From the NCBI GenBank assembly GCA_905221605.1, contig CAJNDS010002108.1, positions 247,909 through 311,908 of the forward strand: DNA of 64,000 bases. Direction: 5' to 3'. The translations under genes were made by a program, and so were the position numbers. The stretch's first letter is position 1. Every line of letters begins with the position of its first letter. The notes under the pieces were generated by a model. That model saw only the letters and a program-made list of their open reading frames with translations. It did no database searches and was not told the DNA's origin. This document shows, piece by piece, positions 24,001 through 45,852 of this stretch. This DNA is from Symbiodinium natans (lineage: Eukaryota > Sar > Dinophyceae > Suessiales > Symbiodiniaceae).

Positions 24001-24150
24001 GTCCCTGAGGCCTCGGGCGCTGGAGGCGACAGTCCGCCGCGGGTGGACGTCAGCGCCGCGGCTAGGGAGCTGGCCATGGTCCCTACCGGTGCTGCCTATG
24101 CCCCTGCTACGGCACCGGGGTCCCGCCCGGCGGGACCGTCCGGTCCGCCG
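24001..24150 (+). CDS. Gag N-terminal fragment
   Basis: The frame beginning at base 24001 is open and Ala/Pro/Gly-rich up to about 24150, where the coding pattern moves to the frame of the main Gag part (a -1 change near 24145-24155). It is truncated on the left by the gap. No domain is recognised in this short disordered-looking piece. Confidence 0.45.
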
Positions 24151-27382: not shown

Positions 27383-27527
27383 TCTTCGCATCCGGTGCCC
27401 GAAACGCATCCGGTGCCCGAAATTTCTGCCTGCAAAATCTTGCCAACGTATACCTCGTATAACAGTGAAGCCACAAGCGACGTGTGACAACAGGAGTGTA
27501 AAGACGCCCTCGAGACTTCAATTTTTT
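27383..27527 (+). repeat. Left terminal inverted repeat
   Basis: It begins TCTT followed by two direct copies of the 18-mer CGCATCCGGTGCCCGAAA (27387-27422). Further blocks shared with the right end are ACAGTGAAGCCACAA (27462-27476, followed by GCGACG) and CTTCAATTTTT (27516-27526). Confidence 0.85.
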
Positions 27528-28050
27528 CTCAGAATACAGGGCCAAGGAGTGAAATAAGGTTTGTTCACGCTGTAACCTGTACAGCAAGAACAAGACCTCG
27601 TATTTATTGGCTTCTACTTTCTACAAGGCTACAAGTTACTAGCTCAGAAAATGTCAGAAATGTCGAGGGTAAGAGTAATACTTGAAAGTTATGGTTTAAA
27701 TCAGTATTTAAGATCGCCGAGTCGTATTCTAAAGCTATTATTTTATGATTATGATTACTGCTTCTTGTTTTTGAAGATCATTATCTTTATTGTATGATTA
27801 TGTGTATTGTATTCATATTCTTATTCGCATGTTTATTATCCCGATTATATATATATATAACTATCAAGAAACGTATTGGTGACATTGCATATTGCTTATT
27901 AATTTTTACTGGTTACGTACTTGTTAGTTCTTACTTCATACTCATTACGGTTTAGACATTCGCTTTTTATCGACTAGTATTTATTTGTATTTGCTACTTT
28001 CTACCAATTAATTGTCATTCTTGCTTCTTGCCTCGTACTTTATGATATTT

Positions 28051-29125
28051 ATTACCTATTACTTATTACTTATTACTTATTACTTATTACTTATTACTTA
28101 TCACTTATCACTTATCACTTATCACTTATTACTTATGACTTATTACTTTTTACTTATTACTTATTACTTATTACTTATTACTTATTACTTATTACTTATT
28201 ACTTATTACTTATTGCCTATTACTTATTACTTATTTCTTATGTCTTATTTCTTAATACTTATTACTTATTACTTATTACTTATTACTTATTACTTATTAC
28301 TTATTACTTATTACTTCTTATATACTTCTTACGTATGACTTATTACTTATTGCTTGATGCTTATTACTTATTACTTATTACTTATTACGTATTGCTTATT
28401 ACTTATTACTTATTACTTATTACTTCTTGCTTCTTGCTTCTTACTTGTTTCTTCTTACTTATTCCTTCTTACTTCTTACTTCTTACTTATTACTGAATGC
28501 GTATTACTTGCTTCTTACTTGTTACTTATTACTTGTTACTTATTACTTATTACTTATTACTTATTACTTATTACTTTTTACTTTTTACTTTTTTCTTATT
28601 ACTTATGACTTATGACTTATGACTTATTACTTGTTACGTATTACTTATTACTTATTACTTATTGCATATTGCTTATTTCTTATTACTTATTACTTATTAC
28701 TTATTACTTATTACTTATTACTTATTATTACTTATTATCACTTATACATTATTACTTGTTACTTGCTTCTTACTTTTTACTTATTACGTATTACTTATTA
28801 CTTATTACTTATTACTTATTACTTATTACTTGTTACTTATTACTCATTGCGTAATCCTTATTACTTGTTACTTATTACTCATTTCTTAGTACTTATTGCT
28901 TATTAATTATTACTTATTATATATTACTTCTTACTTCTTCCCTATTTCTTTTTGCATATTGCGTATTGCTTATTGCTACTTGCCTATTGCTCATTGCTCA
29001 TTGCTCATTACTTATTACTTATTACTTATTACTTATTACTTATTACTTATTACTTATTACTTATTACTTATTACTTATTACTTAGTACTTAGTACTTAGT
29101 ACTTATTACTTATTACTCATTATTT
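28051..29125. repeat. (TTACTTA)n heptamer array, left arm
   Basis: About 1 kb of TTACTTA heptamers with single-base variants. The right part of the same element (33980-34535) carries the reverse complement, TAAGTAA. The poly-Leu/Tyr/Ile frames are artefacts. Confidence 0.95.
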
Positions 29126-29529
29126 ATGACTTCTGACTTGTGACTTATGACTTATGATTCAATGCTTGGTGCCCATTACTTATTGTTTATTGCTTGTTAC
29201 TTGTTACTCATTACTTAATCATTCCTTATTGCTTCTTAGAGTGTGCAGAAGAGTGCGCGCTCCGGTACTTCAGAACTTCAGTTTTTCGGTGGGATTCGGT
29301 GCCCTGCGGTTCAAAACTTTATGAAGGGCACCATAGTATTCTGGTTTCGGCATGCCGTGGTTCAGGACTGCATTAGGGTATATCCAGAAGGGTGTAAAGC
29401 AATGGGGCATTCAGGTTGGCGCCCAAAACCCTAAACCAGACATCCCTAAACCCTAATCTCAAACCCCTACTCCTTACTCCCTAATCTCCAATCCCCAGTC
29501 CCTTGTCCCGAGTTTGTATCTGGGCCTTT

Positions 29530-29914
29530 CCTAAACCCTAAACCCTAAACCCTAAACCCTAAACCCTAAACCCTAAACCCTAAACCCTAAACCCTAAACC
29601 CTAAACCCTAAACCCTAAACCCTAAACCCCTAAACCCTGAACCCTAAAACCTTTTGCAGCGAGCCTCTTGCGCCAGCAGCTCGGTTACCCTAAACCTAAA
29701 CCCTAAACCCTAAACCCTAAGCCCTAAGCCCTGAACCCTAAACCCTAAGCCCTAAGCCCTAAGCCCTAAACCCTAAACCCTAAACCCGGATTGGAGTAAG
29801 GGAGTCATTGCATTTCAAAAACAAATAAACCCTAAACCCTAAACCCTAAACCCTAAACCCTAAACCGAAACCCGAAACCCTAAACCCTAGACCCTAGACC
29901 CTAAACCCTAAACC
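29530..29914 (-). repeat. Telomere-like (CCCTAAA)n arrays, three blocks
   Basis: Blocks at 29530-29651, 29687-29787 and 29826-29914, with CCCTGAA, CCCTAAG and CCCTAGA variants. The spacer 29652-29686 contains TTTTGCAG followed by about 24 bases and GGTTA, a microexon-like layout. Confidence 0.93.
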
Positions 29915-29974
29915 TGTACACGGAGGGTCGAGGGGCACGGGCGTGGGGCTTAGGGAGCTTAGGTGTTTTGTCCC

Positions 29975-31100
29975 TTGTCCGAGCGTGTCCGATGCTCGGA
30001 TCCGATGCTTCCCGACAACCCGGAGAAACCCGCACGGTTGGGGGAGACGACAACCCGCGCGGTTGGGGGAGAATTGTCCGATCCGAACCTTCCGAGTTGT
30101 CGAGAAGTGTCGGATCCGAGGTCGGATCGGACACTTCTCCCCAACCGTGCGGGTTGTCGTTCTGGAGAAGTGTCGGATCCGAGGTCGGATCCGACACTTC
30201 TCCCCCAACCGTGTTTTTTGTGGAGAAGTGTCGGATCCGGGGTCGGATCCGACACTTCTCCGCCAACCGTGTTTTTTGTGGAGAAGTGTCGGATCTGAGG
30301 TCGGATCCGACACTTCTCCCCCAACCGTGTTTTTTGTGGAGAAGTGTCGGATCCGGGGTCGGATCCGACACTTCTCCCAACCGTGTTTGTTTGTGGAGAA
30401 GTGTCGGATCCGGGGTCGGATCCGACACTTCTCCCCCAACCGTGTTTTTTGTGGAGAAGTGTCGGATCCGAGGTCGGATCCGACACTTCTCCCCCAACCG
30501 TGTTTTTTGTGGAGAAGTGTCGGATCCGAGGTCGGATCCGACACTTCTCCCCCAACCGTGCTTTTTGTGGAGAAGTGTCGGATCCGAGGTCGGATCCGAC
30601 ACTTCTCCCCCAACCGTGGTTTTTGTGGAGAAGTGTCGGATCCGAGGTCGGATCCGACACTTCTCCCCCAACCGTGCTTTTTGTGGAGAAGTGTCGGATC
30701 CGAGGTCGGATCCGACACTTCTCCCCCAAGCGTGTTTTTTGTGGAGAAGTGTCGGATCCGAGGTCGGATCCGACACTTCTCCCAACCGTGTTTGTTTGTG
30801 GAGAAGTGTCGGATCCGAGGTCGGATCCGACACTTCTCCCCCAACCATGATTTTTGTGGAGAAGTGTCGGATCCGAGGTCGGATCGGACACCCAGACCCG
30901 TCTCTGCGCAGAGGGTGCTTGGTGTCCGATCCAAGGTCGGATCGGACACCCAGCGCCACTTTTTTTGGGGGCCTTTATCGCCTTAGGGCTTTGCGGTCAT
31001 TGGCTTTCTTTCACATAGGCCTTCTGAGTGTCCGATCGCAGGTCCGATCGGACACCCACACATGGCCCCGAGAAACAAGTTAGAAGTGTCCGATGCAAGC
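29975..31100. repeat. 58 bp hairpin satellite
   Basis: About a dozen tandem units of 57-58 bp between 30160 and 30890, with diverged relatives at 29978-30160, 30920-30951 and 31027-31058. Each unit is a perfect palindrome: arm GGAGAAGTGTCGGATCCGA, loop GG, and the complementary 19-base arm, joined by a spacer CCCAACCGTGTTTTTTGT. Each arm itself contains the palindrome CGGATCCG. All six frames are nearly stop-free, so the long frames here (about 350 codons on both strands) are artefacts. Confidence 0.95.
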
Positions 31101-31442
31101 CGTCTCGTAAAGAAAATGACGCCAAAACCGTTGAACATCGAACTTCTTGCAATAAAAAACCGTGTTTTGGATGCTTTCTGGCCGCCGGACCTACGCCGGT
31201 GATGCTCATGATGCTCCCACCCCGCCATCACGGGCATCAGCGGCTTGGCCCCGGAAAGGCTTTCCAGACACCCTTTGGCTCCTCCCCAAAAGCCCGAATC
31301 TCCAAGACGATAGGGGTAAGTTTTGAGCCGATTCAACCTCTAAACCTGTAGCCTTGCAGCCTTAGAACGTACGGGAACATGACACTGGTTTTTCTGCGGC
31401 GTTGTCGCCTGTGAGTACAACATCCCAAGATATCGGTACACA
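31101..31442. other. Spacer within the nested element
   Basis: Mostly unique sequence with no recognised gene or repeat. Confidence 0.4.
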
Positions 31443-32042
31443 GGTAGATTTTATGCTTTAGGGTTTAGGATACATATATATATATATATATTATCTTTGG
31501 GATTTCTGTATATTTTGTACGGGAATTGCCTATATTCTTAGTGTTTTATTATGATGAGGGGTACTAAAGTCCATCGGGTAAGGGTATTAAACTTAGATTT
31601 TATGCTTTAGGGTTTATGATATATATATATATATATATATATATTATTTGTGGGATTTCGGTATAGTTTGTATGGGAGTTGCCTACATTTGGAGGGTTTT
31701 ATTGCGATGAGGGGTACTAAAGTCCATCGGGTAAGGGTGTTAAACTTAGATTTTATGCTTTAGGGTTTATGATATATATTATTTGTGGGATTTCGGTATA
31801 GTTTGTATGGGAGTTGCCTACATTTGGAGGGTTTTATTGCGATGAGGGGTACTAAAGTCCATCGGGTAAGGGTGTTAAACTTAGATTTTATGCTTTAGGG
31901 TTTATGATATATATTATTTGTGGGATTTCGGTATATTTTGTATGGGAGTTGCCTACATTTGGAGGGTTTTATTGCGATGAGGGGTACTAAAGTCCATCGG
32001 GTAAGGGTGTTAAACTTAGATTTTATGCTTTAGGGTTTATTC
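31443..32042. repeat. Satellite of about 133-151 bp, four to five copies
   Basis: Units contain AGATTTTATGCTTTAGGGTT, a variable (AT)n stretch, GTGGGATTTCGGTATA, then GGGGTACTAAAGTCCATCGG. Unit length varies with the AT run. The last copy is cut at TTTAGGGTTTAT and runs into telomere-like DNA. Confidence 0.92.
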
Positions 32043-32050
32043 CTGAACAG

Positions 32051-32376
32051 TAAACCCCAAACACTAAACCCTAAACCCTAAACCCTCAACCCTAGACCCT
32101 AAGGCCTAAACCCTAAACATGTGGGCTTGCACTGTTTCAGTTTTTTTGGGGGGTGGAGGTTTAAGAGGTTAGGCTTCGGGTTCAGGGATTTGGGCTTGCA
32201 CTATGTTTTTTTTTGGGGGGGGGAGGAGGTTTAAGAGGTCAGGGCTTAGGTTCAGGGATTTGGGCTTGCACTGTTTTTTTTTGGGGGGGAAGTCTTTGGA
32301 GGCAAGATTGGGCCTCTAAACCCTAAATCCTAAACCCTAACCCCTAAACCCTAAACCCCAAACCCCAAACCCTAAA
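32051..32376. repeat. Telomere-like blocks flanking a 72 bp tandem repeat
   Basis: CCCTAAA-type DNA at 32051-32119 and 32313-32376. Between them are three copies of a unit of about 72 bp containing GGGCTTGCACT, a T/G homopolymer run, and GGTTTAAGAGGT. Confidence 0.85.
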
Positions 32377-32402
32377 ACGGACCTCGGGTCCATCGAGGGA
32401 TT

Positions 32403-32860
32403 GAGGCAGTGCTTTGGGCATGGGCGTAATATATCAATGACGTTCTTAATCCCCCCCCCCCCCCCACCCCACCCAGCAAGACCAAAGCAGTCAGTGCTTT
32501 GGGCATGACGTAATGTCAATGACGTTTCTTATCCCGCCCCCCCCCCCCACCCCACCCAGCAAGACCAAAGCAGGCAGTGCTTTGGGCATGGACATAATAT
32601 CAATGACGTTCTTATCCCCTTCCACCCCAGCAAGACCAAAGCAGGCAGTGCCTTGGGCATGGACGTAATATCAATGACTTTCGTATCCCCCCCTTCCACC
32701 CCACCCAGAAAGACCAAAGCAGGCAGTGAATTGGGGCATGACGTAATATCAATGACGTTCTTATCCCCCCCCCACCCCACCCAGCAAGACCAAAGCAGGC
32801 AGTGTTTGGGGCATGGAGTAACATCAATGACGTTCTTATCCCCCCCCCCGGCAAGACCAA
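32403..32860. repeat. Tandem repeat of about 75-85 bp, six copies
   Basis: Units contain GGCAGTGCTTTGGGCATG, GACGTAATATCAATGACGTT, CTTATCCCCCC and CAGCAAGACCAAAGCA. Length differences come from the C run. Each unit carries one or two TGACGT-type words. Confidence 0.92.
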
Positions 32861-32994
32861 AACAGGTACATGTAGAATGTTTGCGAGAAACAGCACGAAT
32901 TTTACCCTCGACTCTTTCTTGGATGTTGTTCTAAACCACATGTTTGAGGCCCTGAAGTAAGGAGTAACATAGCGTCAATTGTGGCACCGTCTGG

Positions 32995-33700
<706 letters not shown>

Positions 33701-33979
33701 CGTCGTCGTCGCAGTTGCAGTAGCCGTAGCAGTAACAGCAGCAGCAGTAGCAGTAGCATTAGTATTGGAATCGCGTTAGGGAAAATAGAATCAATAGAAA
33801 TCGTAATCGTGCTCGGATAATTGTGACTATCATTGTCACTATCTCGATATAATTACAACCATTACGATTACATGTTGATGACTAGCGCAGTGCGCTCTTG
33901 AAGCAAACAAAACCATGGGAGCACACATAATTCTGCGTTCTCGCCTTTAATTTAAGAGCGCGCACTCCGAATGGCGAGC

Positions 33980-34535
33980 GCCCGAAGTAAGAAGTAAGAA
34001 GTCACCAGTAATTACACAATAAGTAGTAAGTAAGTTACACATTGTTATGTGATCAGCAGTAGGTAATAAGTAGTAAGTAACAAGTAACAAGTAGGAAGCA
34101 GTAAGTAATAAGTAATAAGTAACATGCAACAAGCAATAACCAATACATAATAGGCAATAAGTAAATCAGTGACAAGGAACAAGTAATAAGTAACAACCAA
34201 CAAGTAACAAGAATCAAGCAATAAGTAAGAAGTAAGAAGTAAGAAGTAAGAAGCAAGAAGTAATAAGTAATAAGCAATAAGTAATAACTAATGAGCAATA
34301 AGTAAGAAGTAACAAGTAGTAAGTAATAAGTAAGAAGTAAAAAGCAATAAGTAATAAGCAACAAGTAGCAAGTAATAAACAATAAGTGATAAGTAATAAG
34401 TAATTAGTAAAAAGTAATGAGTAATAAGTAATAAGGAAGAAGTAATCAGTAATTGGAAAAAAGTAATGGGTGAGTAATAAGTAACAAACAATAAGTAACA
34501 AGCAATACTCAGTAAGTAACAAGTAAACAGTAGTA
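33980..34535. repeat. (TAAGTAA)n heptamer array, right arm
   Basis: Heptamers TAAGTAA with variants, the reverse complement of the left-arm heptamer at 28051-29125. Together they make the nested element a giant inverted structure. Confidence 0.92.
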
Positions 34536-34667
34536 CCTCATAATAACAATTTAAGCTTCGCGGCTTGATATCTTCAGGCTTCTTTTATTTCGCTTAATGT
34601 TAAAGTTGGAGCTCGAGAGCAAGAACAGTATTCCGCGTCCTCGTCCTTGTCCTTGTCCTTAAAGCCT

Positions 34668-34775
34668 AAAAATTGAAGAATGCAAAACTGTCGTCGGTTG
34701 TGGCTTCACTGTCAATTGGTTTTATGTTGACAAATTTTCGGGTACCGGATGTGTTTCGGGCACCGGATGCGGAGA
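34668..34775 (-). repeat. Right terminal inverted repeat
   Basis: The reverse complement begins TCTCCGCATCCGGTGCCC, continues with a second, slightly diverged copy of the 18-mer, then carries the ACAGTGAAGCCACAA block (complement at about 34697-34711) and CTTCAATTTTT (complement 34668-34678). TAA follows at 34776-34778. Confidence 0.85.
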
Positions 34776-34778
34776 TAA

Positions 34779-37140
34779 CTCTTTTTGCTTGGACCACCTC
34801 CCAAGCGTCGACAGCTGGTGGGAGGCGCCGGGTGGTTACGCGTCTGTGTGGGGTAGGCGCCCTGCGCAGAAGGACCTTGGGACCCTGGCGGTCGAGAAGG
34901 CGCCTTACGAAACGTGCTTGCTTCAGCGCGCAGGTGAGGCGTGGCGTCTTTGGGACACGAGGGATTTGCGTGTGGCGGGAAGCGTTGCGTGCAGCGATGA
35001 GGTTCCAGTCACCGAACGCCTCGCGGTCTTTAGGACGCGCAAGGGGCCACGCTGGGCTGGCTGGCGTGAGGGATCGGCCACGGCTGGAAGAGGCGCAAGT
35101 GACGCTGTGCGCCCAGCAGACGCGGTCGACACGGCGCGCTGCCCGAGCTATCATATCGTGGAGAGCTGGGACATCGATAAGATGATCGAGGAGCCTCCAA
35201 CGGACTATTATTATGAGCAGCTCGCGGCAGATATGCGCGCCCGGCACCCTAAGGCGTGCCCGCACCTCCTCGACCACCTCGTTTCCTTAGAGGGTTTCCT
35301 AGACAAGTCAATCTTGTTTGGGTTCTCCTTTGGGATCAGCAAGGCCGAAGTTTGTGTCTCCAAAGGTAAGCTCCTAGGACACAACATTGGGCGGGACGGG
35401 AGTTCGCCTGACGAAGAGCGTTGTCAGGCGGTGATTGACTTTCCCCCGCTCTGGGAGAAGCTTCACATTCAGCAATTTTTGGGTTGCGCAAACTGGTTGC
35501 GCGGCTACCTGCCTGTTGAGTATGGGCACGCAGCCAAGATTTTAGGGCAGTGGCAGAAGCCAGGCGCCGTCTTTCCTGAAGGCGGGCTGGGCTCAGCCGC
35601 CACCGAGGGTTGCAAAGCCTTTAAAGCGATTAAGCGCATGATGCAGAACCGCATCAATTTGGCTACCTTCGATGAGGCCTCTGCTGCGGATGGGTCGTGT
35701 CCCCTTGAGCAGATCGCGGATGCGTCGGGCATCGCGGTAGGGGGCAGCGTCGTGCAGATGACGCGTGACTTGAGTCAGCTCAAAGTGCTTATGACGCACT
35801 CGAAGAGCTTGACCCCCGCGCAGCAGAACTGGCCGCCCTTGATACAGGAGGCGTTTGCCCAGCTCGAGGTAAAGCGGGCGACACGCCGCATGTTTGGCTC
35901 TATTCGGACTCTGTGTTGGACAGATCATGCCAACCTTGCCCGAGCGCAAACGTCGGACATCGGAATGGATCCGAAACTCGTCCGGTGGGTTGCGGAAATC
36001 CTTATGGATGGGTCCGAAATAAGGAGCCTTAGCGGTCGCTCAGCGACGCTGGGTGACAGTTTTAGCCGCAATCCCAAAGATCGGGATGCGCTCCTTGCGG
36101 CGAGGACGAAAGATCTCGAGGGCCTTTCGGGCCAACTCCGAGGTTTCGACCTGGACCAGTACCTCGGAGAGGGTACTGAGGGTGACGGACCCGTGCCCTG
36201 GGCGGTCGGCAACGACGCCGTCCCAGAGCCTGCGGGCCGTGTCCAGGCCGCGGCTGTGCCGATGTGCGTCGTCGCAGCCCTTCCGGTGCGCGTCATGGTT
36301 GTCTTTGACTACGCGCGTTGGAAAGAGCAGGACGCAGAGCTGACTGAGATCAGGCGCGTCTTCCAAGCGAGCCTCCCTGGAGTTTCTGTGGCTGTCAGGG
36401 GTTGTTGGGGTCCGTTTGAGGATACCGACGGGCTTGCCTCGCATTTTGATTGCGGGGCCGGCAGGCTCGCAGGGACCAAGAAGATCAAGCGGATCAGGGT
36501 CGACTTGCTTACTTCGTGTGCCAAGGTTCTTAGGGAAGCTTCGGGGTTTCGCCCGCAATTCCTCGTAGGACTTGGGCAAGGCGGGCTTGTCACAGCCGTC
36601 CTTAGGTGGCCTTTGGTTGTTGAGCTCACGCTCCAAGCAAGGAACCTGCAGCGCAAGGAAGCCAGGGCTGTAGGAGAGGCTTGGGCAGGCATCAAGGCTA
36701 TCTGGGCGGTGCGGCCACGCCTTTGGCGCACGCAGCAAGGCCACTTGGAAGTGGCCGAGGCTTGTCCGGAACTCAAGAAGGATTTTCCGGAGCCTCCCCT
36801 GCGAGGTTTTGGGATCGTAGGGAAGCAGGCATTGGGGGCGGAAGTTCTGCGGTCCTTGAGGCTGGACGCGGTTCGTTCCATCGATGATGCCAGCATTAGA
36901 GGAATGCTGGACGAACCGTCACGACCCCTCTGGGACCATGAGGGTCTGTGCATCTGCGGCAAGCGGACCTACCTGTTTTCTCGCTGCCCCGCCTGCATCG
37001 AGAAAGAGGCAGTCGATACCTCGGTGGAGATAGCCGAGCGGGAGGAGCCCGAACCTCCGCTTGAGGGCGACCTTGAGGCCCATGAGGTGGGCCTAGAGGT
37101 CAACTCCGTCCTTGCAACTTTGGATAGGACAGGAGGTTAG
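34779..37140 (+). CDS. RT C-terminal part and RNase H of the retroelement
   Basis: The frame including 34789 is open from just after the nested element to TAG at 37138-37140. Counted from 34789, residues about 160-290 match the end of a Ty3-type RT: a helix, then Lys-Ala-Glu-Val (for Lys-Cys-x-Phe), Leu-Leu-Gly-His-x-Ile, and the connection segment with Phe-Leu-Gly-Cys-Ala-Asn. RNase H follows with Asp311 in Asp-Ala-Ser-Gly, Glu near 345, and Trp-Thr-Asp379-His. The RT fingers and palm, including the Tyr-x-Asp-Asp motif, are not visible. After RNase H comes a domain of about 200 residues with a Gly-Leu-Gly-Gln-Gly-Gly loop (about 596-601), and a zinc-ribbon-like CxC...CxxC near 723-740. The frame change toward the integrase is -1 near 37130. 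Confidence 0.72.
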
Positions 37141-40100
37141 TTAGGGTTAGGTCCTCAACCATCCAGCAATGGGCGGTAGGGTTCAGGACTACGCCCAAAG
37201 ATGCTCCAGTTCCCACAGCATATGGCATGCTGAGTGGGAAGATATGGAAGAAGAGCCATTCCATGAAGCTCAGCCTCGGCTCCCAGCACAAGGATCTTTC
37301 CAAGTGGGGCGATGTGAAGCCTTACTGGACCACATGGGTGGTTAGAGAAGATGGTGCTGTGGTGGCGGGGCACAACTGCTCGCCCTTGAATGTGGTTCAA
37401 GGCGACATCGTCGTGCATTGGTCGTCAGTAGTGAACTGGCACGGCCACAGACATGTCGTGAATGAGCAGTGTGAAGTGCTCTGGAGGTCTAATGGCAAAG
37501 AGGTTGCCTTAGACCCCTCCTTCGGCAAGCTGATAGCCCTTGTGGGTAGGGTTACTCAGGTCATTGGCTGGCGGGCAACCGGAGAAGCAGCTTCGGATCC
37601 CCGCAGTTCTACCCGGCAGGCGTCAAGGGTCCTTGCTCAATTCTCTTCGTCCAACGAGGGCGTAGAAGGGCATTGGACCGCGGGCGCTATCAGTCGCGGA
37701 AAGAATGCCAATGAGTGCAAGCTGAAGGGTAGAGTTTTGGCGTTTATGGGTGAGGAGCACAAGGGCCCTGCAGTGGTTCTAGAGCTCGTCAGCCATAGCC
37801 CCATCCTGTGCATTTGGGACCATTCCTCAACCAAGGTCAAGGTCGAGTTTAAGGGCGGTGTTCCGTCTTTGAGCCTGATCGCGGAGGAGGACGAAAATCG
37901 TCGTGAGCGGCTTGCGGTCGAGGCAAGGGACGCGGCGAACATTTCGGAGTTCCGAGTCACGGGATCCCTTCGTACGGCGTGGTACGAGGGTCAGCGGCGC
38001 GATCCCTCATTGGCGGGCTCGATTCGCAAGCCAGAGCCGCCGATGGTGATATCCGGAGACGGGTTGCTTGAGCGCGAGGTGACCCTCAGGACGGGTCAAA
38101 CCGTCGTTGTCCCAGTGGTTCCCAACGGGGCTGCGGGCGCGAATGGAGTGACCTGGCGCCGCGCTTGCTACAATTCAGTCCACTGCGGAGTCCTTGGGGC
38201 CCATAGGTCCGCTGAGGTTACCATCAAGCTGCTAGAGAGGGCAGTCTGGTGGCCCGACTTAGAGAAAGATGTGCGGACCTGGGTCGCCAAATGTCTCGCT
38301 TGCATTAAGGGCCGCTCTCGACCGACGAAGGTCGAGGCTCGTGCGGTCAAATGTGGCGCCGAGACATGCTGGCAGGAAGTCAGCGTGGACTGTGAAGGTC
38401 CAAACCGAGAGGACAGGGAAGGGCATAGGTACTCGCTTACGTACTTCGATTGCCTCAGTCATGCTGTCCTCCTCGAGCCGATGAGGTCTCTGACTCATGC
38501 TGAAGTCAGGAGGGCGTTCGTGCGCTGTGTGCTTCGCAGCAGGACGATCCCGAGCCTCATCAGGTCGGATAGAGGGCCAGAGTTCAAGAATGCGCTCATG
38601 GCAGAACTCAGCGCTATGCTTGGGACCGAGTGGCGGTTCAGCGCGCCCTTGAGGCCTTGTGAGTTGGGCGCAAACGAGCGAGTCCACCAAGAAGTTCAAA
38701 AGGTGCTGGGGGCGGTCGTCAGGCAAGTCGGCGCCTCCCTTTCCGAAGCTTGGTCGGATTGGCTCGTGGTGGCGGAGTACGTCATTGATAACACTCCGGG
38801 ACCCCACGGGTATACCCCGAGGGACCTAGAGCGGAGCTGGTCGCTCGCTCTACCACTTGAAAAGGACGTCCTGCGAGACGCCTTGCAGTTTGAACCCATC
38901 TCTGATTGGGCTCGGAGCCAGTTTAAGCAGTTCTCGGAACTAGCTGCTGCGGTCCGAGAGCACTGGACGCGGTCTTCAGAAGCGCGGGCGAAACTTGCAA
39001 ATCGCCATAGGCGCACTGTGGACCTTAAGCCAGGCGACCGAGTGGTCTGGAACGCTCCGAGGGCCCGTTCAGAGGGGGCGGGGCGTGTGCCTTGGAAACC
39101 GGGTCTGACCGGCCCCTGGCGCGTGTTGGAAGTCAAGGGCCACAGGCTCACCTTGGAGCCCGTGTCGATGGAGTCGGGGGGTACTTCTTCCGCCCGGCGC
39201 GGCCCGATGGAGGCGCACGCAGAAGACTGCATTCTTGTTCCTGCGGATGCAGATGGCGCGGAATCCCGCGAGCCGGTCGTCTTTGAGGACGATGGAACCG
39301 GCGGGGACGGCTCGTCTCGCCCCAGCTTAGGGCAACAGGTTCAAGGCGACGCCAAGCAAGTGGAGTTCACGCTGACCAGGCGCGGGAGGGACTTCGTCCT
39401 CCGCCTTGGTGACCGCATTGCCTATCGGGGTGTAGGTGGAGGCCCGAAGGTGTGCAGGTTAGGACGGGTCACGCAGGTAGATGCTGCCCGTGCGCAGGTC
39501 GGCGTGCACCGCTATCTCCCCGACGCCAGCGGGGTTCGCGTCAAATGGCGGCTCGCATACATCGCCGAGGACGGTGCGCTCACGCTTTCAGAGGGGACTC
39601 GTCCGGCCCACGAAGCGGTTTCCGTCAGGGAGATCATTTCCAAGATCGACCTGAACCGCGACGGCGTGCTTGCTGCAGCCTCGGCCAGAAAGTTGGACAA
39701 GGGAGCGTACTCGTTACAGGACAGGGCGCTCGAGAGAGCGTCTCGCACTGGCACGGGTGTGCTCTCGATCCGAGAGGCCCTCGCGGACCTCTTGGTCGCG
39801 GAACCCCGCGTGTTGCAGCCTAGGGCTTCCCCAGAGTCGGGTGCTGTCGAGAGTTGGTTCCGGCAGTATTTCCTTGGAGGGGTTGCCGATGTCTTAGAGG
39901 TTGCTTGGGGTGACGCGGCCGTCTCCGACGCGGCTAGGAGGCACGGGTACAGGGTTGTTCCCGCTTTTGTGCAAGGCAAGCAGGCCTACGGGATCACCTG
40001 GAACCTGGCCGCAGAAGAGCACTTAGAGGCCATTAGCGGCGCTGTTCTGCGCACAGAGCCGAAGGTGCTCGTGATTGGGCTTGAGGGCAAGAATGTGCCC

Positions 40101-40352
40101 CGGGCTTTCCTCCAGCTAGTCGTCCGGTGTACGCAGGAACGCACGCGCGCGGGCGCCCACGTCGCGCTGCATTTGCAGGCACAAAAAGGCGAGTGGGAAC
40201 CCTGGCGGCTTGGGACGCTCGCAGAGCCACGCTGGCCTTGGGCTTTCGTGCGGGCTGACATGTGCCAGTTCGCGCGGGCCAGTGGCCGCGGCAACCTCGT
40301 TGAGAGCGGGGCCCTGTGGCTCGCCGATTTCAGCTTAGAATCGGTAGGTTGA
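37131..40352 (+). CDS. Integrase with GPY/F motif and methyltransferase-like tail
   Basis: The ATG at 37227 is the first Met, but the frame is open back to about 37131, so this is probably continuous with the preceding part through a -1 shift. Counted from 37227: the zinc-binding N-terminal integrase motif is His319-x6-His326-x29-Cys356-x2-Cys359; the catalytic triad is Asp388 (Val-Asp-Cys-Glu-Gly), Asp448 (Ser-Asp-Arg-Gly-Pro-Glu) and Glu484, giving the expected D-x35-E spacing. The C-terminal Gly-Pro-Trp-Arg-Val at about residues 630-634 is the GPY/F module of Ty3/gypsy integrases. It would insert the cDNA into host DNA. Residues about 850-1035 resemble the Rossmann-like methyltransferase module carried by some dinoflagellate retroelements, but a catalytic Pro-Cys motif is not seen. 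Confidence 0.82.
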   Translation, partial: RRLVRVRSSTIQQWAVGFRTTPKDAPVPTAYGMLSGKIWKKSHSMKLSLGSQHKDLSKWGDVKPYWTTWVVREDGAVVAGHNCSPLNVVQGDIVVHWSSVVNWHGHRHVVNEQCEVLWRSNGKEVALDPSFGKLIALVGRVTQVIGWRATGEAASDPRSSTRQASRVLAQFSSSNEGVEGHWTAGAISRGKNANECKLKGRVLAFMGEEHKGPAVVLELVSHSPILCIWDHSSTKVKVEFKGGVPSLSLIAEEDENRRERLAVEARDAANISEFRVTGSLRTAWYEGQRRDPSLAGSIRKPEPPMVISGDGLLEREVTLRTGQTVVVPVVPNGAAGANGVTWRRACYNSVHCGVLGAHRSAEVTIKLLERAVWWPDLEKDVRTWVAKCLACIKGRSRPTKVEARAVKCGAETCWQEVSVDCEGPNREDREGHRYSLTYFDCLSHAVLLEPMRSLTHAEVRRAFVRCVLRSRTIPSLIRSDRGPEFKNALMAELSAMLGTEWRFSAPLRPCELGANERVHQEVQKVLGAVVRQVGASLSEAWSDWLVVAEYVIDNTPGPHGYTPRDLERSWSLALPLEKDVLRDALQFEPISDWARSQFKQFSELAAAVREHWTRSSEARAKLANRHRRTVDLKPGDRVVWNAPRARSEGAGRVPWKPGLTGPWRVLEVKGHRLTLEPVSMESGGTSSARRGPMEAHAEDCILVPADADGAESREPVVFEDDGTGGDGSSRPSLGQQVQGDAKQVEFTLTRRGRDFVLRLGDRIAYRGVGGGPKVCRLGRVTQVDAARAQVGVHRYLPDASGVRVKWRLAYIAEDGALTLSEGTRPAHEAVSVREIISKIDLNRDGVLAAASARKLDKGAYSLQDRALERASRTGTGVLSIREALADLLVAEPRVLQPRASPESGAVESWFRQYFLGGVADVLEVAWGDAAVSDAARRHGYRVVPAFVQGKQAYGITWNLAAEEHLEAISGAVLRTEPKVLVIGLEGKNVPRAFLQLVVRCTQERTRAGAHVALHLQAQKGEWEPWRLGTLAEPRWPWAFVRADMCQFARASGRGNLVESGALWLADFSLESVG

Positions 40353-40401
40353 GGTGTAGTAGGCCGGATGCGTTAGGCGCAGTGCAGCACAAGCACGTTG
40401 A

Positions 40402-41085
40402 GCGCGCGCAAGCCGACTACAACCTCATAGGGGCGGCTTTCTGCGCTTCGCTCCAGGACCTTGGTCTGAGGGGCGCAGAAGAGAGCTTATAGACCGGTAT
40501 GGCCCGGCCATGTGGCACGGCACGGACCTGCATGTCGTGCCAAGCCTGATTCAGAACGGCTTGATCCCCGGCGGCGGGCCGGGAGGCCGCCTCGGAGTGC
40601 ACTACGTCCTAGGCCACTGCCCCACGCAGTGGGAGGACGGGAGACGCGGGTTCCGCCGCGGATCGACTTGCATAGTCGAAGTCCGGCTGGCGGTCCTGCG
40701 GGACGCCGGAGTGCCCATCTATTCGGGAGCGGATGGGGTGGCTCTCACTGGCCAGATTAGAGCCACCGGCATCTCCCGCATCTGGGCACTCCCCAAGGGC
40801 TCGCCTGTTTACTCAGTCTTGATTGCTGAGTTAGAAGTGGATCGGTTGATCCAGCATGTCGACCTAAGGAGTTTAGGCGACACCAGTGCGGGCCCACACC
40901 CGCCGTTGGGGCGAGGACCGAGACTGGGCACGGTCCAGGCGTCCCAAGCTGCTGCGGCCAGCAGTGGCGCGGCGAGCTCCTCGACGGTTGTGCTGGCCCC
41001 TGCGGGCCGTGTCATGGCCGCGGGGGCCGCCCAACCTGTTACCCCTCCTAAGGCCGCGCCTAAGGCCAAAGGGCGTCCCTCAGGG
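40402..41085 (+). CDS. KptA/Tpt1-like RNA 2'-phosphotransferase domain
   Basis: The frame is open from 40402, 50 bases after the integrase stop, with the first Met at 40510. From that Met, residues 2-5 read Trp-His-Gly-Thr, the NAD-binding His-Gly-Thr of Tpt1/KptA enzymes. Then come Ile-x-x-x-Gly-Leu-x-Pro-Gly-Gly, a Val-His at about 30-31 (second conserved His), Arg-Arg-Gly near 53-56, and Val-Pro-Ile-Tyr-x-x-x-Asp-Gly-Val-Ala-Leu-Thr near 74-86, matching the family's aromatic-Asn/Asp-Gly-Val-x-Leu-Thr element. The family transfers a 2'-phosphate from RNA to NAD, or acts as an ADP-ribosyltransferase on nucleic-acid ends. Family members have an N-terminal lobe of about 80-90 residues that is only partly present here. 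A -1 shift near 41085 continues the protein in the next frame. Confidence 0.62.
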
Positions 41086-41902
41086 GCTCTAACACTTCGA
41101 TCGTTCCAGCGAAGCCCAAGGTGTACCCTAGGCGCAACGTCCCTGGCCCCAATGTCCTCGAGGCCGAAGACTCGCTCGAGGAAGAGGCAGCCCAAGAAGC
41201 TGAAGGTGTCGAGGAAGATAGTTCCAGCTCGGATCTTCCCGACACGCGGGCGCCTCCAGCCGCGGTCAAGGTGAAGGAGGACGAGGAGCCCGCTGATGGG
41301 GCCCATGCCGAGAGCACAGAGGAAGGGTTCCTCGAGCTCGGCCAAACGGTGGTCAGCAGCGCGAAGGAGTACCTCGCGCGGTCCGAAGCTCTTCTGAGAG
41401 CGCAGAAGCTCCAGTCGAGGATACTGGAGGTGGCGGGAACCGCGATGGTGAAGCTAGAGAAGATCACCAAGCGTGAGGAATCCCTCAAAACACTGCGCCG
41501 AGAGGGAGAGAGTCGGGCGGCCGGGGAAGGCGCCGACGGGGAAGAGGTGTCTGACGATGGTCAGGACGCCCCCGGGGTTGCGGGGTCGAGCAGTTCCGCC
41601 AGGCCTTCAGGAGGCGGGACCGCCCAGTCCGCCCCGGCCCCAGAGGAGCCTCGCCCCAACGCTGACGGCCACTATGGATGCTCAGCTCCTGGATGCGGGC
41701 TGGCCTTTGAGTCGCTGGTGCAGTACCACTTGCATCAGGCGGCCTGCCATGGCGCCTCTCTTCCGCCCAACCTGGGGATCAGCCCCTCCGCACCTCTTGA
41801 CCCTTTTCGTCAAGACTGGCGGGGACGGTTGTTCCGCCGAGGAAAGGACGGTGAGTATGGGGAGGTGCCCATGCTCCGAGTGATTCGGTACCACAAGCCA
41901 AT
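41085..41902 (+). CDS. Middle part of the extra polyprotein, C2H2 zinc finger
   Basis: Continuation of the previous part in the -1 frame. It begins with a Pro/Lys segment, then about 60 acidic and Ser-rich residues, then a probable coiled coil (about residues 75-130 from 41121) and another low-complexity linker. A C2H2 finger follows: Cys187-x4-Cys192-x12-His205-x5-His. Near the end an Arg-x-Leu-Phe-Arg-Arg basic patch precedes a Val-Ile-Arg-Tyr-His sequence. At about 41902 the protein passes by another -1 shift into the following frame; the last eight codons before TGA at 41931-41933 are then spurious. Its role is unknown, with nucleic-acid or protein binding suggested by the finger. Confidence 0.55.
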
Positions 41903-44869
41903 GGGTACGATCACTCGAAGGTCCCGCTCCTGAAGAGAGGGGACCGAATCCAGCTTGAGGACGGGTCGCACCACATTTATGGTGGTAGTCATCCGCCGGG
42001 GTGGCTTCGCGATGACCCGGAGCTGGATCCCGCTCCAGAGAGCAGCAGTGGAGGGTCCACGCCCAAGAGCGAGCCCAAAGAGGAGGCCGAGCCGAGACCT
42101 CCGCGGGAAGCAGCTCCGCGCGGGCGGGCCCTCGAGCCGCCGAAGGGCGACGTTCAGCAACGCCTTGCGGAGCGTCGTTCCAAACGGGATTATTCGCCAG
42201 ACCTGGTGACGCCTCTTGACGATCTCCATGCCCAGGAGATCGATTCCTTCTTCGCGGGCGACCCAGCCGCGGACAGCCTTGACGTCATTCTGATGCGCGC
42301 CGAGGTTCGCACTGAGTCCCACCTCAAAGTTGGCCGGGAGGAGAAAGAGCCCCTGGTCAAGGAGGAACAGGAGGAGGAAGCTGAGGTTGTCAAAGACGAG
42401 GAGGTATCGGTTGAGATGGAGGAGGGCACCGCGGATGAGGCGGACGATGTCGCCCTCCCAGCCAACCGAGCCTACGTCGAAGGCCGCTTTTACCCCTACG
42501 GCAGCTGGCGGTGCTTCTTCTGCGAAGCCATTAACCCGGTCACCGAGGACCAGTGCCTCACCACGCACGCGGGCGGCCCGAACGCGGGCGCCCCGTGCGA
42601 CGGCCGATGGATCAACGGGATCGACATCGGGTGGTGGGAGGTAGATCCTCAAACCGCGCCGGAGCAATGGCGGCGGAGGTTTTCTGCCGAAGAGCTTGAA
42701 GAACAGCAAGCGCGGGCAGATGCCGCGAGGCTTCTCAGCGATGAGGAACTCGCTGAAGCCCTCCAGGCGGCCGAGGAGGCGCGGGCGGCCGAGCGCGCCA
42801 AGAAGCGGGAGCGGCGCCAGGCGGAGAAGGCAGAGCGCGATGATCACATCAGCGAGGCGCTCCGCATAGCAGGGTGGCAGTGCCCTAACTGCTATGAATG
42901 GAACCTTTCATTCAGGCAGCTGTGCTTTCGGTGCAGCACGCCTCTCCGCTTGGCAGAGGTCGTTTCCCGCGGGATCCCTGATCCGCGGCGCGGCGAAGAG
43001 AGGGACTCGGGCTCCGAAAGCAGCCAGGACGAGCTGGAGTACGAGATCCTTCTGGCCAATCGCGCGATGGACCAAGAAACCATCCAACCTCTTCTTAGAA
43101 ATAAACACAAGAAGAGGGGCGGCAAGAGACGTCGCGAAGAGGCGACGTACGGCAAGGGCCGCGACCCTTGGAGTGCTTGGGCAGACGCCCGTGGCAAGGG
43201 CCAGGGCAAGCCGAAGGGCAGAGGCAAGTCCGATGCCAAGGGCAAGCCCAAGGGGAGGGGCAAGTACGCCTGGGGCGCTTTCGCCGCGGGCATTGTTGCC
43301 GCGCTCCAACCCCGCCCAAGCACAAGCTGGGTCCCAGCCTTCCCGTGCGGGTCGGCCCGGCCGCCGCCAAGTGTTCCGCTTCCGCCGCGGACCCCCTTTT
43401 TCCTGGGTCGCGGGCTCCTCAATCGGTTGATGCACGCCCTCAACGGGAACATCAACGGTTGGTGGGGCCTGGCGGCTGCAGCGTCGGCGCCGATTGCCTT
43501 GCAGTTGCACCGCGGGGTTGTGCATGTTGTCGAGGACTCCATGCACGCGGTTGCAACGGTTTCGGCCGACGTAGTCGAGGAAATCGGTCATGGGGCCAGG
43601 CGGACCGTGTGGGTCGCCGGAACAGCCATCACTCTGGTAGTAGTGATTTTGTGCGGCGCTGTTCTGTGGTACGTGAGTCGTGCCGTTGCCAATCGCATTG
43701 CGCATATGCGACATGGCAACACCGCGGCCCCTGAGGCGCGGCTGTCTCAGCTCCTTGGCTCCGAAGCGACGTTTGAGGTCGCGAGCTCCAAGAAAGGGGT
43801 GACCCATAAGGTTTGGGTGCACCTCAAGGAGGAGACAGCTGCCTGTGGCTGTCGTGCTTACCTGGCAGAAGGACGCTGCGGGCATTGCGAAGCCGCAATG
43901 GACACCGCTCGTTCCCTAGGGTTTTTGCACGCGGCCCAGCGAGGCGCGGGTCCTGCGCTCACAGACTCCATTCGGAGTACCGCCTCCGAAGCCCTGGCTA
44001 AGGGTAAGGTTGTGTTGGGTTTGGGGAACAGTGAAGGATGTTTCTCCCAACTTGCGGCCAAGAGCCGCGGGCTCTCCTGCTTTCAGGGGCTCGCGGGTCG
44101 TGACCTGGCCGCGGCCCCAGCAGATGGAGCGAGCGCAGCCCACGCACAGTCCGGCTCCGTGCAACGTGCCGCCACTGCCACTGTGGCGCGCACACCAGGC
44201 CGGAGGAACAAGGGCCCAGCCCCCGCTAGGAGTTCTCCAGTCAAAGAAGCGGAATTCCTTGCGGGCGGGCCATACGTTCAGGCCGCCCAAACGCTGCTTG
44301 GGTCTGGAGCAGCAGAGGATGTGATCTACATCCGTGCGTACAGCTTAGATTGCCCATCCTGCATCGAGGCAATCGAAGCGTCGCTTAGCAAGGGCGCAAG
44401 CGTTCGGATTGTCGCCGACATGGGGCAATGCCACCGCACCAAACTTCAGTGGCAAGCGTTGAAACGCTTGGCGGCTGCAGGTGCCGAAGTGAAGGTGGGT
44501 TGTGGCACATCCGTGCGCGACGCCTATGCTCGCGACGGCCGCGGGGCTAAGGTAGGCACCGGGATTCAAGGCCTGCACCATGCCAAGGCCCTATGCCTAC
44601 TGCGGCCTGATGGCGCGGTGGTGCTGATTGGGAGCCTCAATTTTACCACAAGCAGCAAAGCCAATGCGGAGGCAGGGCTTAAGCTTGAGGTCCCCAAGAC
44701 GCACCCAGTCGCACAGTCCTACATCGAGGAATTCCAGAGGGTGTCGGCTGAGGCATTCTCCCTCGATGAGGCGGTTGCAAAGCGCCCTCAGTTGGAGCGA
44801 GCCAGTAGCTCCAACGTTGCTGGCAACGCCACTCGTGCCCCTAACACTGCTCCACAGGGTATCGAGTAG
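41903..44869 (+). CDS. RanBP2 fingers, membrane segment, SWIM finger and PLD-like nuclease domain
   Basis: The frame is open from 41903, with numbering here from GTG 42206. An acidic stretch is followed by a RanBP2-like finger (Trp-Arg-Cys103-x2-Cys106-x10-Cys), a charged helical segment (about 155-215) and a second RanBP2-type finger (Trp-Gln-Cys226-x2-Cys229-x10-Cys240-x2-Cys243). Then come a Lys-Gly-rich basic region (about 330-355), a hydrophobic segment at 468-490 likely to span a membrane, and a SWIM-type finger (Cys547-x-Cys549-x8-Cys558-x-His560). The last 190 residues form a phospholipase-D-family domain with a single motif, His792-x-Lys794, followed by Asp802-x6-Gly-Ser-x-Asn. The Asp is three residues later than in the canonical HxKx4D. 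Single-motif members act as dimeric nucleases or phospholipid hydrolases. It ends at TAG 44867-44869. Confidence 0.68.
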   Translation, partial: GYDHSKVPLLKRGDRIQLEDGSHHIYGGSHPPGWLRDDPELDPAPESSSGGSTPKSEPKEEAEPRPPREAAPRGRALEPPKGDVQQRLAERRSKRDYSPDLVTPLDDLHAQEIDSFFAGDPAADSLDVILMRAEVRTESHLKVGREEKEPLVKEEQEEEAEVVKDEEVSVEMEEGTADEADDVALPANRAYVEGRFYPYGSWRCFFCEAINPVTEDQCLTTHAGGPNAGAPCDGRWINGIDIGWWEVDPQTAPEQWRRRFSAEELEEQQARADAARLLSDEELAEALQAAEEARAAERAKKRERRQAEKAERDDHISEALRIAGWQCPNCYEWNLSFRQLCFRCSTPLRLAEVVSRGIPDPRRGEERDSGSESSQDELEYEILLANRAMDQETIQPLLRNKHKKRGGKRRREEATYGKGRDPWSAWADARGKGQGKPKGRGKSDAKGKPKGRGKYAWGAFAAGIVAALQPRPSTSWVPAFPCGSARPPPSVPLPPRTPFFLGRGLLNRLMHALNGNINGWWGLAAAASAPIALQLHRGVVHVVEDSMHAVATVSADVVEEIGHGARRTVWVAGTAITLVVVILCGAVLWYVSRAVANRIAHMRHGNTAAPEARLSQLLGSEATFEVASSKKGVTHKVWVHLKEETAACGCRAYLAEGRCGHCEAAMDTARSLGFLHAAQRGAGPALTDSIRSTASEALAKGKVVLGLGNSEGCFSQLAAKSRGLSCFQGLAGRDLAAAPADGASAAHAQSGSVQRAATATVARTPGRRNKGPAPARSSPVKEAEFLAGGPYVQAAQTLLGSGAAEDVIYIRAYSLDCPSCIEAIEASLSKGASVRIVADMGQCHRTKLQWQALKRLAAAGAEVKVGCGTSVRDAYARDGRGAKVGTGIQGLHHAKALCLLRPDGAVVLIGSLNFTTSSKANAEAGLKLEVPKTHPVAQSYIEEFQRVSAEAFSLDEAVAKRPQLERASSSNVAGNATRAPNTAPQGIE

Positions 44870-45640
44870 GCTGCGGCCAGTTGGCGCGGCGTGGTATGCA
44901 TCCACGCATTATCAGAGCAGGCGTTGCAGCACGGCACGTTGCTTCGCCAACCTTTTGCACTTTCTTTTGCTTGACTGCGGGCGAAAAGCCGCGGCAGGTG
45001 GAAACCTGCCCATTTTGCTTCCCCGCACCTTTCTCCTTCGCCCTGCCTGTGGCCCCTCGTGCCGAGGGTGCTCTTTTGCAGGTGCTGCGGACCGTGTCCT
45101 GGTCGCGGCAATGCGCTCGCCGAAGCGCGTGTGAGTTGCATTGCCCGCGGCACGAGCCATGTGCGCGGCTCTCACTGAGTCTGGTAGCCCGTAGGGTAGT
45201 TCCGGATAGGTGAGTAGCCGTAGCCGTAGCTTAGGACCGGTAGTGTACAGTGTACCATTTGTACCATAGTCTGCGTACTGGCAGCTAGAGACCAGCTCGA
45301 GGATTCAAGAGCCTCGCCCACCAGCAAAAGGGTGAGGACCTCCTGGGAAAGGGTGGTTAAGGGTTGCTGAGGGTTGCCGTCGTCGTGCGTTCGTTGTGGT
45401 GGTGCGGGCTAGCGTCCCTGCCGCATGCCAATGCTCATGATGTGCGGACCACCGCGGTCGCACGCGACACCCTCTCGCTTCCCTTTCTGTGTTCAGCGCG
45501 AGTGCCTGCTGCACTCCGAGCTCGAGATGAGCTGGAAGCCTCGGCTGAGGGGCGAATGTGAGCAGGTCTAAGCACGCACGTTGCATGTGCAGAGCTGCCA
45601 GGACCAGTACTGTAGTCTTCTTTGCATGTGTAGGTTCGCA
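44870..45640. other. Retroelement 3' flank, no gene recognised
   Basis: GC-rich DNA after the last stop, possibly 3' untranslated and LTR sequence, but no TG...CA ended repeat could be defined because the 5' copy is hidden by the gap. A short TAGCCG repeat lies at 45213-45232. Overlapping open frames on both strands have no recognisable domain. Confidence 0.4.
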
Positions 45641-45651
45641 ATTCGTTTCAA

Positions 45652-45669
45652 TGCCAATTTTGGCTCAAG
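45652..45669 (+). other. Second spliced-leader-like relic
   Basis: TGCCAATTTTGGCTCAAG matches the 3' end of the dinoflagellate spliced leader except for one extra A. It is followed by TACC rather than the GT expected of an active leader RNA gene, so a relic is more likely than a gene. Confidence 0.5.
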
Positions 45670-45852
45670 TACCGAGCTTGTGCCTTTGAGCACGGTAGCG
45701 TCGTACAGTAGCTCCTAGGTTGCTGTGCGGTCCGACCGGACGCACTCAGGCGTAGCTGCACAAGTGCTTGAACTCGCGAAGTCGTAAAACAGCGTGACCG
45801 GGCTGTGATTGCATTGGCTTAGTGCAAGTCCAGTGCTGGTCGACTTCACATA

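Follow-up and report, generated by a model that had tools for sequence, protein, structure and literature searches.

The genome of the dinoflagellate Symbiodinium natans holds a 64,000-nucleotide stretch (contig CAJNDS010002108.1, positions 247,909 to 311,908; hereafter the window) in which domains resembling the RNA 2'-phosphotransferase Tpt1 and a PLD nuclease stand behind a Ty3-type integrase. Do these domains belong to a retroelement, and if so, to what kind? A preliminary description, made from the sequence alone, had assigned them to the retroelement and followed a polyprotein through three frames. The three stop-to-stop open reading frames (ORFs) lie as it described (40402-41274, 41064-41933 and 41855-44869), and the ORF upstream of them does encode a Ty3-type integrase (Integrase_H2C2, E 2e-10; rve, E 1.9e-8). 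Our analysis indicates that the element in the window is very probably a decayed copy of a recently active, ~17-kb long terminal repeat (LTR) retrotransposon of the Ty3 type, and not a host gene. We are just as confident that this type of element carries a split and reordered reverse transcriptase (RT), whose parts most likely join as one Ty3-like polymerase.

Six further copies, chosen for long open frames, were fetched in pieces from the source genome assembly (759 Mb, labelled G000). One open frame spans 5,309 codons in the C1828 copy and 5,273 codons in the C1878 copy. In both copies it joins the Gag side, the integrase and the Tpt1/PLD domains inside the LTRs, which bears out the assignment to the retroelement. 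No separate host gene was found, and profile searches matched both Tpt1 and PLD, the two points on which that assignment could have fallen. The C1828 copy measures ~17.3 kb from LTR to LTR. Paired LTRs of ~294 nt flank five of the six copies (identity 100, 100, 100, 97 and 98.3%), and no pair was found in the C1546 copy. The LTRs end in TGTG...CACA, the 5' LTR is followed by a site starting with TGG that resembles a primer-binding site (PBS), and 4-bp target duplications were seen by eye in three of the five LTR-paired copies. A 1,004-codon tail ORF occurs in at least 46 copies with 96-100% amino-acid identity (46 scored of 1,682 candidates). The family is recently amplified and present in high copy number. 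Simple repeats of the ATGT/GCAT/ATAC type flank the C1828, C1878 and C9 copies, a possible target preference.

The polyprotein has the order Gag (with CCCH fingers), protease, RT motif D/E with thumb, connection and RNase H, integrase, RT fingers/palm with motifs A, B and C, spacer, Tpt1, zinc fingers, membrane segment, SWIM finger and PLD. Hence the RT is split between motifs C and D, and its two parts are encoded in reverse order. By sequence reading, motif A (FVDAVSGFNQI), motif B and motif C (AYVDDLT) are located downstream of the integrase, while motif D/E, thumb and RNase H are located upstream of it, behind the protease. Pfam searches on pieces of the C1828 copy agreed, with RNase H before the integrase and RVT_1 exclusively behind it, on L010 at residues 1390-1506. 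The front half gave no RVT_1 match there. The palm half alone matched RVT_1 at 3e-6, which is below the cut-off in C1828 and above it in P0006.

Three tests agree on this arrangement, and we therefore conclude that the RT is split and swapped. In the structure of yeast Ty3 RT/RNase H (PDB 4ol8), the front half of C1828 (thumb-RNase H) matches residues 253-475 (E 1.2e-5; as a profile 1.2e-9), and the rear half (fingers-palm) matches residues 108-197 (E 9.6e-5; as a profile 2.8e-4). The rear-half profile also matches 8r0s, an 'Enzymatic polyprotein', with an alignment that runs through YVDD (2.5e-5). The same genome contains a Ty3 ORF of normal order (L027/L028, G000:C1646:326145-330530, 3,118 codons), on which the two half profiles map to the adjacent, non-overlapping segments 430-634 and 648-919; they likewise map without overlap on the normal-order relatives P0146 and P0147. 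Finally, a six-frame scan (E 1e-3) detected one palm per element, downstream of the integrase, in 6/6 fetched copies, no palm upstream of the integrase in any of the six, and no palm between 20001 and 47000 of the window. Among the three normal-order relatives compared, the C1646 ORF scored best with both halves, and it has the RNase H end motif SRNPKDRD in common with the permuted family.

Two other readings of the locus were considered and dropped. Decayed fingers/palm might have persisted between protease and thumb, but hhalign of this stretch against the palm profile gave a probability of 0.1% (9 rows) and the six-frame scan was empty. As RVT_1 stood behind the integrase, a second RT of the long interspersed nuclear element (LINE) type was also considered; it was rejected because the two halves are complementary.

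The arrangement recurs in the genome. Searches yielded 131 scored thumb-RNase H hits (of 303 candidates) and 147 scored palm hits (of 281 candidates). A palm on the same strand lies within 12 kb downstream of 77 of the 131 thumb-RNase H hits, and 76 of the 78 downstream thumb-palm pairs are spaced 5.3-5.7 kb apart. Two thumb hits have palms both upstream and downstream. Not a single pair among the scored hits had the distance of a normal RT. P0006, which represents a related family, brought up no diverged copies when used as a bait, since all 42 scored palm matches in the genome belonged to the same family (77%).

We also compared 155 relatives, among them proteins of Symbiodinium microadriaticum, Cladocopium goreaui, Durusdinium trenchii and Effrenium voratum. 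The protease comes first in all 23 that contain protease and thumb, and none of these 23 has a palm hit. Integrase and palm occur together in nine, with the integrase first in seven (palm identity 45-99%); the remaining two, P0146 and P0147, are the normal-order Ty3 elements mentioned above. Where palm and Tpt1 occur together, the palm is first (20/20). P0119 of Durusdinium trenchii has pieces of RNase H, integrase, palm and Tpt1 in that order, and P0038, with a palm only 58% identical, keeps Tpt1 behind it. Because relatives elsewhere share the order, a family unique to one genome could be rejected. The tail was met less often: its search matched 9 proteins, those with the two RT halves 56 and 91. 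P0130, among the rows that the thumb search brought up, is named as a planctomycete metagenome-assembled genome.

Both RT halves are under purifying selection. The palm showed 21 synonymous and 0 nonsynonymous changes (14 copies; ratio of nonsynonymous to synonymous polymorphism, pN/pS, 0.00), the thumb-RNase H part 31 and 2 (7 copies; pN/pS 0.02 here and 0.01-0.02 overall), and the integrase 45 and 1 (6 copies; pN/pS 0.01). The aspartates of RT motifs A and C are kept in 42/42 rows, at identities down to 53%, and the acidic residues of RNase H in 54/54, 55/55, 55/55 and 47/47 non-gap rows of 56. From these residues and ratios, both halves look functional. Selection is also retained on the tail, with 75 synonymous and 43 nonsynonymous changes in Tpt1 and 45 and 23 in PLD (14 copies each).

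The spacer between palm and Tpt1 (codons ~1540-1760 of L010) behaves differently. It is open but unconstrained (13 synonymous and 29 nonsynonymous changes in 14 copies, pN/pS 0.77), and an open frame of this kind is expected by chance in 76 of 5000 first-order Markov sequences. In diverged relatives the match is limited to the first 33-55 residues of the spacer, and nothing downstream of the palm therefore looks like a substitute thumb. Of 16 relatives inspected, 11 have a start codon, followed by a basic N terminus, ~24-40 residues ahead of the Tpt1 RHG motif. Together with the unconstrained spacer, this suggests that the Tpt1-PLD tail may be a second ORF, with the end of the spacer as a cistron boundary.

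The Tpt1 domain is complete in the C1828 copy, where PTS_2-RNA matches both lobes (profile positions 6-175; 33.8 bits, E 4.3e-8, above the cut-off). All 13 PDB chains reported for a joint palm+Tpt1 profile are Tpt1 (best 1.8e-15); a single Tpt1 sequence searched against solved structures gave nothing at E<=1. In CthTpt1, a tetrad of Arg18, His19, Arg68 and Arg121 is reported to be essential (PMC6333775). The corresponding R, H, R and R are kept in 17/17, 17/17, 16/18 and 17/17 non-gap rows of 18, the last arginine being placed by motif spacing. PLD conforms to a nuclease with a single HKD motif, with a PLDc_2 match, the pattern HxK...GSxN, and H, K and N kept in 5/5 aligned rows. P0152 and P0153, which are 39-51% identical by segment, retain the PLD motifs, the RanBP2-type finger 2, and the cysteines and histidine of the SWIM finger.

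Why, then, did the window show only part of this? The copy matches other copies by blastn from 24001 to the end of the 3' LTR at 45850, and the window showed no 5' LTR. The features of this copy are listed in Table 1. A deletion removed the RT fingers/palm (motifs A, B and C) together with the spacer and the RNA lobe of Tpt1, a segment that the six other fetched copies retain. The palm that these six carry between integrase and Tpt1 is accordingly absent from the sequence described earlier.

Table 1. Features of the retrotransposon copy in the window.
Feature	Position	Strand	Evidence
Gag and protease part	24001..27373	+	blastn 96.4% to L009 4334-7720; protease motif CMLDGCAGA at 26279-26314
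Later nested 7.4 kb insertion, foreign to the element, splitting the copy	27374..34784	.	Flanking 4-bp TTGC repeat
Part of protease-thumb stretch	34785..35199	+	blastn to L009; without detectable fingers/palm
RT C-terminal half (motif D/E region, thumb, connection, RNase H)	35200..36099	+	tblastn; RT_RNaseH 5.4e-9
RNase H-to-integrase region, limits approximate	36100..38100	+	Comparison with other copies
Integrase, H2C2 zinc-binding domain and catalytic core	38157..38690	+	Pfam; motifs D 38379-38399, D 38559-38585, E 38670-38690
Integrase C-terminal part and post-integrase region to deletion point	38691..40483	+	blastn to L010
Junction of ~2.1-kb deletion	40483..40484	+	L010 3535-5631 lost; comparison with six other fetched copies
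Remaining Tpt1-like C-terminal (NAD) lobe	40486..40851	+	Motifs HGT, GRLGVH, RRG, DGVALT
C2H2-like finger	41679..41750	+	By eye
RanBP2-like finger 1, imperfect	42506..42556	+	By eye
RanBP2-type finger 2	42872..42934	+	Kept in P0152 and P0153
Hydrophobic, probable membrane segment	43604..43678	+	Sequence inspection
SWIM-like zinc finger CxCx8CxH	43844..43888	+	By eye; kept in P0152 and P0153
PLD-like nuclease domain	44312..44740	+	PLDc_2 2.9e-10; HxK and GSLN at 44570-44641
3' LTR, TGTG...CACA, 294 nt	45557..45850	+	DinoSL-like stretch at 45653-45669

The damage accounts for much of the difference between the preliminary description and our results. The three frames exist, but the frame changes that were read as part of a polyprotein represent decay of this copy, because other copies are open in one frame throughout. 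The PLD domain is real (40.5 bits versus a cut-off of 27 in the window). Tpt1 was correctly recognized at the level of the family, yet the match in the window is weak (E 0.058, 13.9 bits versus a cut-off of 26, profile positions 102-175 of 177) because the deletion took the N-terminal lobe; the remnant has lost R-H and the second R of the tetrad, and does not by itself qualify as a two-lobe Tpt1. None of the RanBP2-like, SWIM-like and C2H2 fingers of the window matched a Pfam model at E<=1, although the RanBP2-type finger 2 and the SWIM pattern can be seen by eye and recur in the diverged relatives. Of the roles proposed in the preliminary description, RNA/DNA end processing may be suggested by the active-site residues and the purifying selection kept in Tpt1 and PLD, and membrane-associated replication could at most be read from the hydrophobic stretch.

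Several features of the copy lie outside this argument. The CCCH zinc fingers of the family's Gag were seen in L009. The insertion has inverted ends (CGCATCCGGTGCCCGAAAC.CATCCGG), a TTGC duplication recognized by eye and internal repeated sequence, and looks like a terminal inverted repeat (TIR) element. The post-integrase region at 39160-40352 is conserved (VLEVAWGDAAVSDAARRHGYRV) and by eye possibly methyltransferase-like; it had no Pfam match at E<=1. A DinoSL-like stretch was present in all 11 LTRs read (that of the window, L009, L011, L012, L014, L015, L017, L018, L020, L024 and L026), where TTTTGGCTCAAG, with GCCA and then 1-4 bases before it, resembles the 3' part of the dinoflagellate spliced leader. 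For the four LTRs tested, its score was reached in 0, 1, 1 and 1 of 5000 Markov sequences. Possibly, the genomic RNA of the element was once, or still is, capped by trans-splicing at this stretch.

Some of our results weigh against a split RT working as one enzyme with an active tail. Among the 147 scored palms, none lies within 12 kb of 52 of the 131 scored thumb hits, and four of the 131 have an upstream palm, at 6.2-11.9 kb. Against solved structures, neither half reaches more than a modest score by itself, and all chains that the joint palm+Tpt1 profile found were Tpt1, without any RT chain in PDB at E<=0.01. The copies used for pN/pS were drawn partly from similarity-ranked searches, but the six copies chosen by frame length gave the same pattern by themselves (synonymous/nonsynonymous: palm 13/0, thumb-RNase H 31/1, spacer 5/10). 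In the tail, most active-site residues of Tpt1 and PLD are kept, but the arginine of the Tpt1 RRG motif is kept in only 9/18 rows.

An alternative explanation might be that the palm half forms a full second RT of its own, with another thumb or none, and that the upstream thumb-RNase H piece is an RNase H module only. The palm half does match RVT_1 alone, and an RNase H could act by itself. However, the spacer behind the palm offers no replacement thumb, and the upstream piece is constrained including motif E and the thumb, so that we regard this explanation as unlikely. It is less likely still that the elements are polymerase-defective and copied in trans by elements of normal order such as C1646, the permuted order being a passive relic. 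Such a normal-order Ty3 ORF is present in the genome, and this explanation, too, would count against a working split RT. Yet pN/pS, among the segments compared, is lowest in both halves of the RT and in the integrase, and no row, not even the most diverged, has lost the palm aspartates.

Two further explanations concern the locus rather than the enzyme. If the Tpt1-PLD region were a separate host gene beside the retroelement, the start codon before Tpt1 in many relatives and the unconstrained spacer preceding it would be in line with expectation. This is hardly credible, however, because the region lies inside the LTRs wherever copies have them, shares one frame with the integrase in two fetched copies, and follows the palm in every relative with both. 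Dinoflagellate repeats are hard to assemble, and the domain order might in principle be an artefact of assembly or gene models. Against this stand the 76 equally spaced thumb-palm pairs, the uninterrupted open frames, and relatives from other sources with an identical order, P0056 and P0119 of Durusdinium trenchii among them; together these reduce the chance of an artefact to almost nothing.

We therefore return to a Ty3-type element with a split RT. Protease cleavage, or separate translation, would free the two RT parts, and the fingers/palm and thumb-RNase H chains would then assemble non-covalently in trans into one Ty3-like polymerase, which would presumably be active. The arrangement may plausibly have arisen when the RT was duplicated behind the integrase and each copy then lost the part that the other kept; with the palm profile, no remnant of a duplicated RT was detected in the protease-thumb stretch. 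The tail would act on RNA ends, either for the element's own RNA or against host RNA-based defence. Tpt1 could take 2'-phosphates off RNA, or attach ADP-ribose to RNA ends; PLD could cut RNA or DNA. We can only guess that the tail repairs what host RNA processing does, or defends the element against it.

RTs are treated as having a fixed order of palm motifs, and both domain-order searches and RT phylogenies assume such an order. If our explanation is true, the right hand of an RT can naturally be built from two polypeptides, which would offer a natural model for split RTs. It would also explain why annotation may overlook or mislabel elements as abundant as these, since the front half has no RVT_1 match. 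Through the Tpt1-PLD tail, a connection of RNA 2'-phosphate or ADP-ribose chemistry with the life cycles of retroelements becomes testable. In the openly licensed literature, preprints excluded, no report of a natural split, permuted RT was found; the wordings 'fragmented reverse transcriptase' (Amaranthus genome) and 'split reverse transcriptase' (a CRISPR review) were left unassessed. Novelty is judged from this search, with Gmr1 reordering and motif permutation in some viral polymerases as precedents. We think it probable that this is the first natural RT broken between motifs C and D and permuted across a polyprotein, that its two pieces function without a covalent bond, and that the lineage, an old and successful one in dinoflagellates, carries its own Tpt1 and PLD.

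How does the element compare with known systems? Like Ty3/Gypsy elements, including yeast Ty3, it has LTR pairs with TG...CA ends, a PBS-like site, a protease motif, a Ty3-type RT, RNase H and an H2C2-rve integrase. Gag usually carries CCHC fingers in Ty3/Gypsy elements, and the RT remains whole in those of the Gmr1 type. Here, in contrast, Gag has CCCH fingers, the polyprotein reaches ~5,300 codons and ends in a Tpt1-PLD tail, and the contiguous RT of the order protease-RT-RNase H-integrase is lacking in 6/6 copies and in the relatives, with fingers/palm moved behind the integrase. Added nucleic-acid enzymes are also known from SymbioLINE-Dnmt and SymbioDIRS-Dnmt3, Symbiodinium retroelements that carry DNA methyltransferases, and SymbioDIRS elements likewise differ in domain order; these are of LINE and DIRS types with other cargo, and the passages describing them do not mention a split RT (PMC5890265). 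Within Ty3/Gypsy, an altered pol domain order is shared with Gmr1-type elements, in which the integrase lies upstream of the RT (PMC8220671; PMC2774666); domains have moved there, whereas here one domain is broken in two. The RNA-dependent RNA polymerases of Birnaviridae and Permutotetraviridae have a permuted order within the polymerase palm (PMC7508674). As the relevant passages describe it, the catalytic loop has moved inside one domain in these viruses, whereas in the element studied here the RT pieces are separated by RNase H and integrase.

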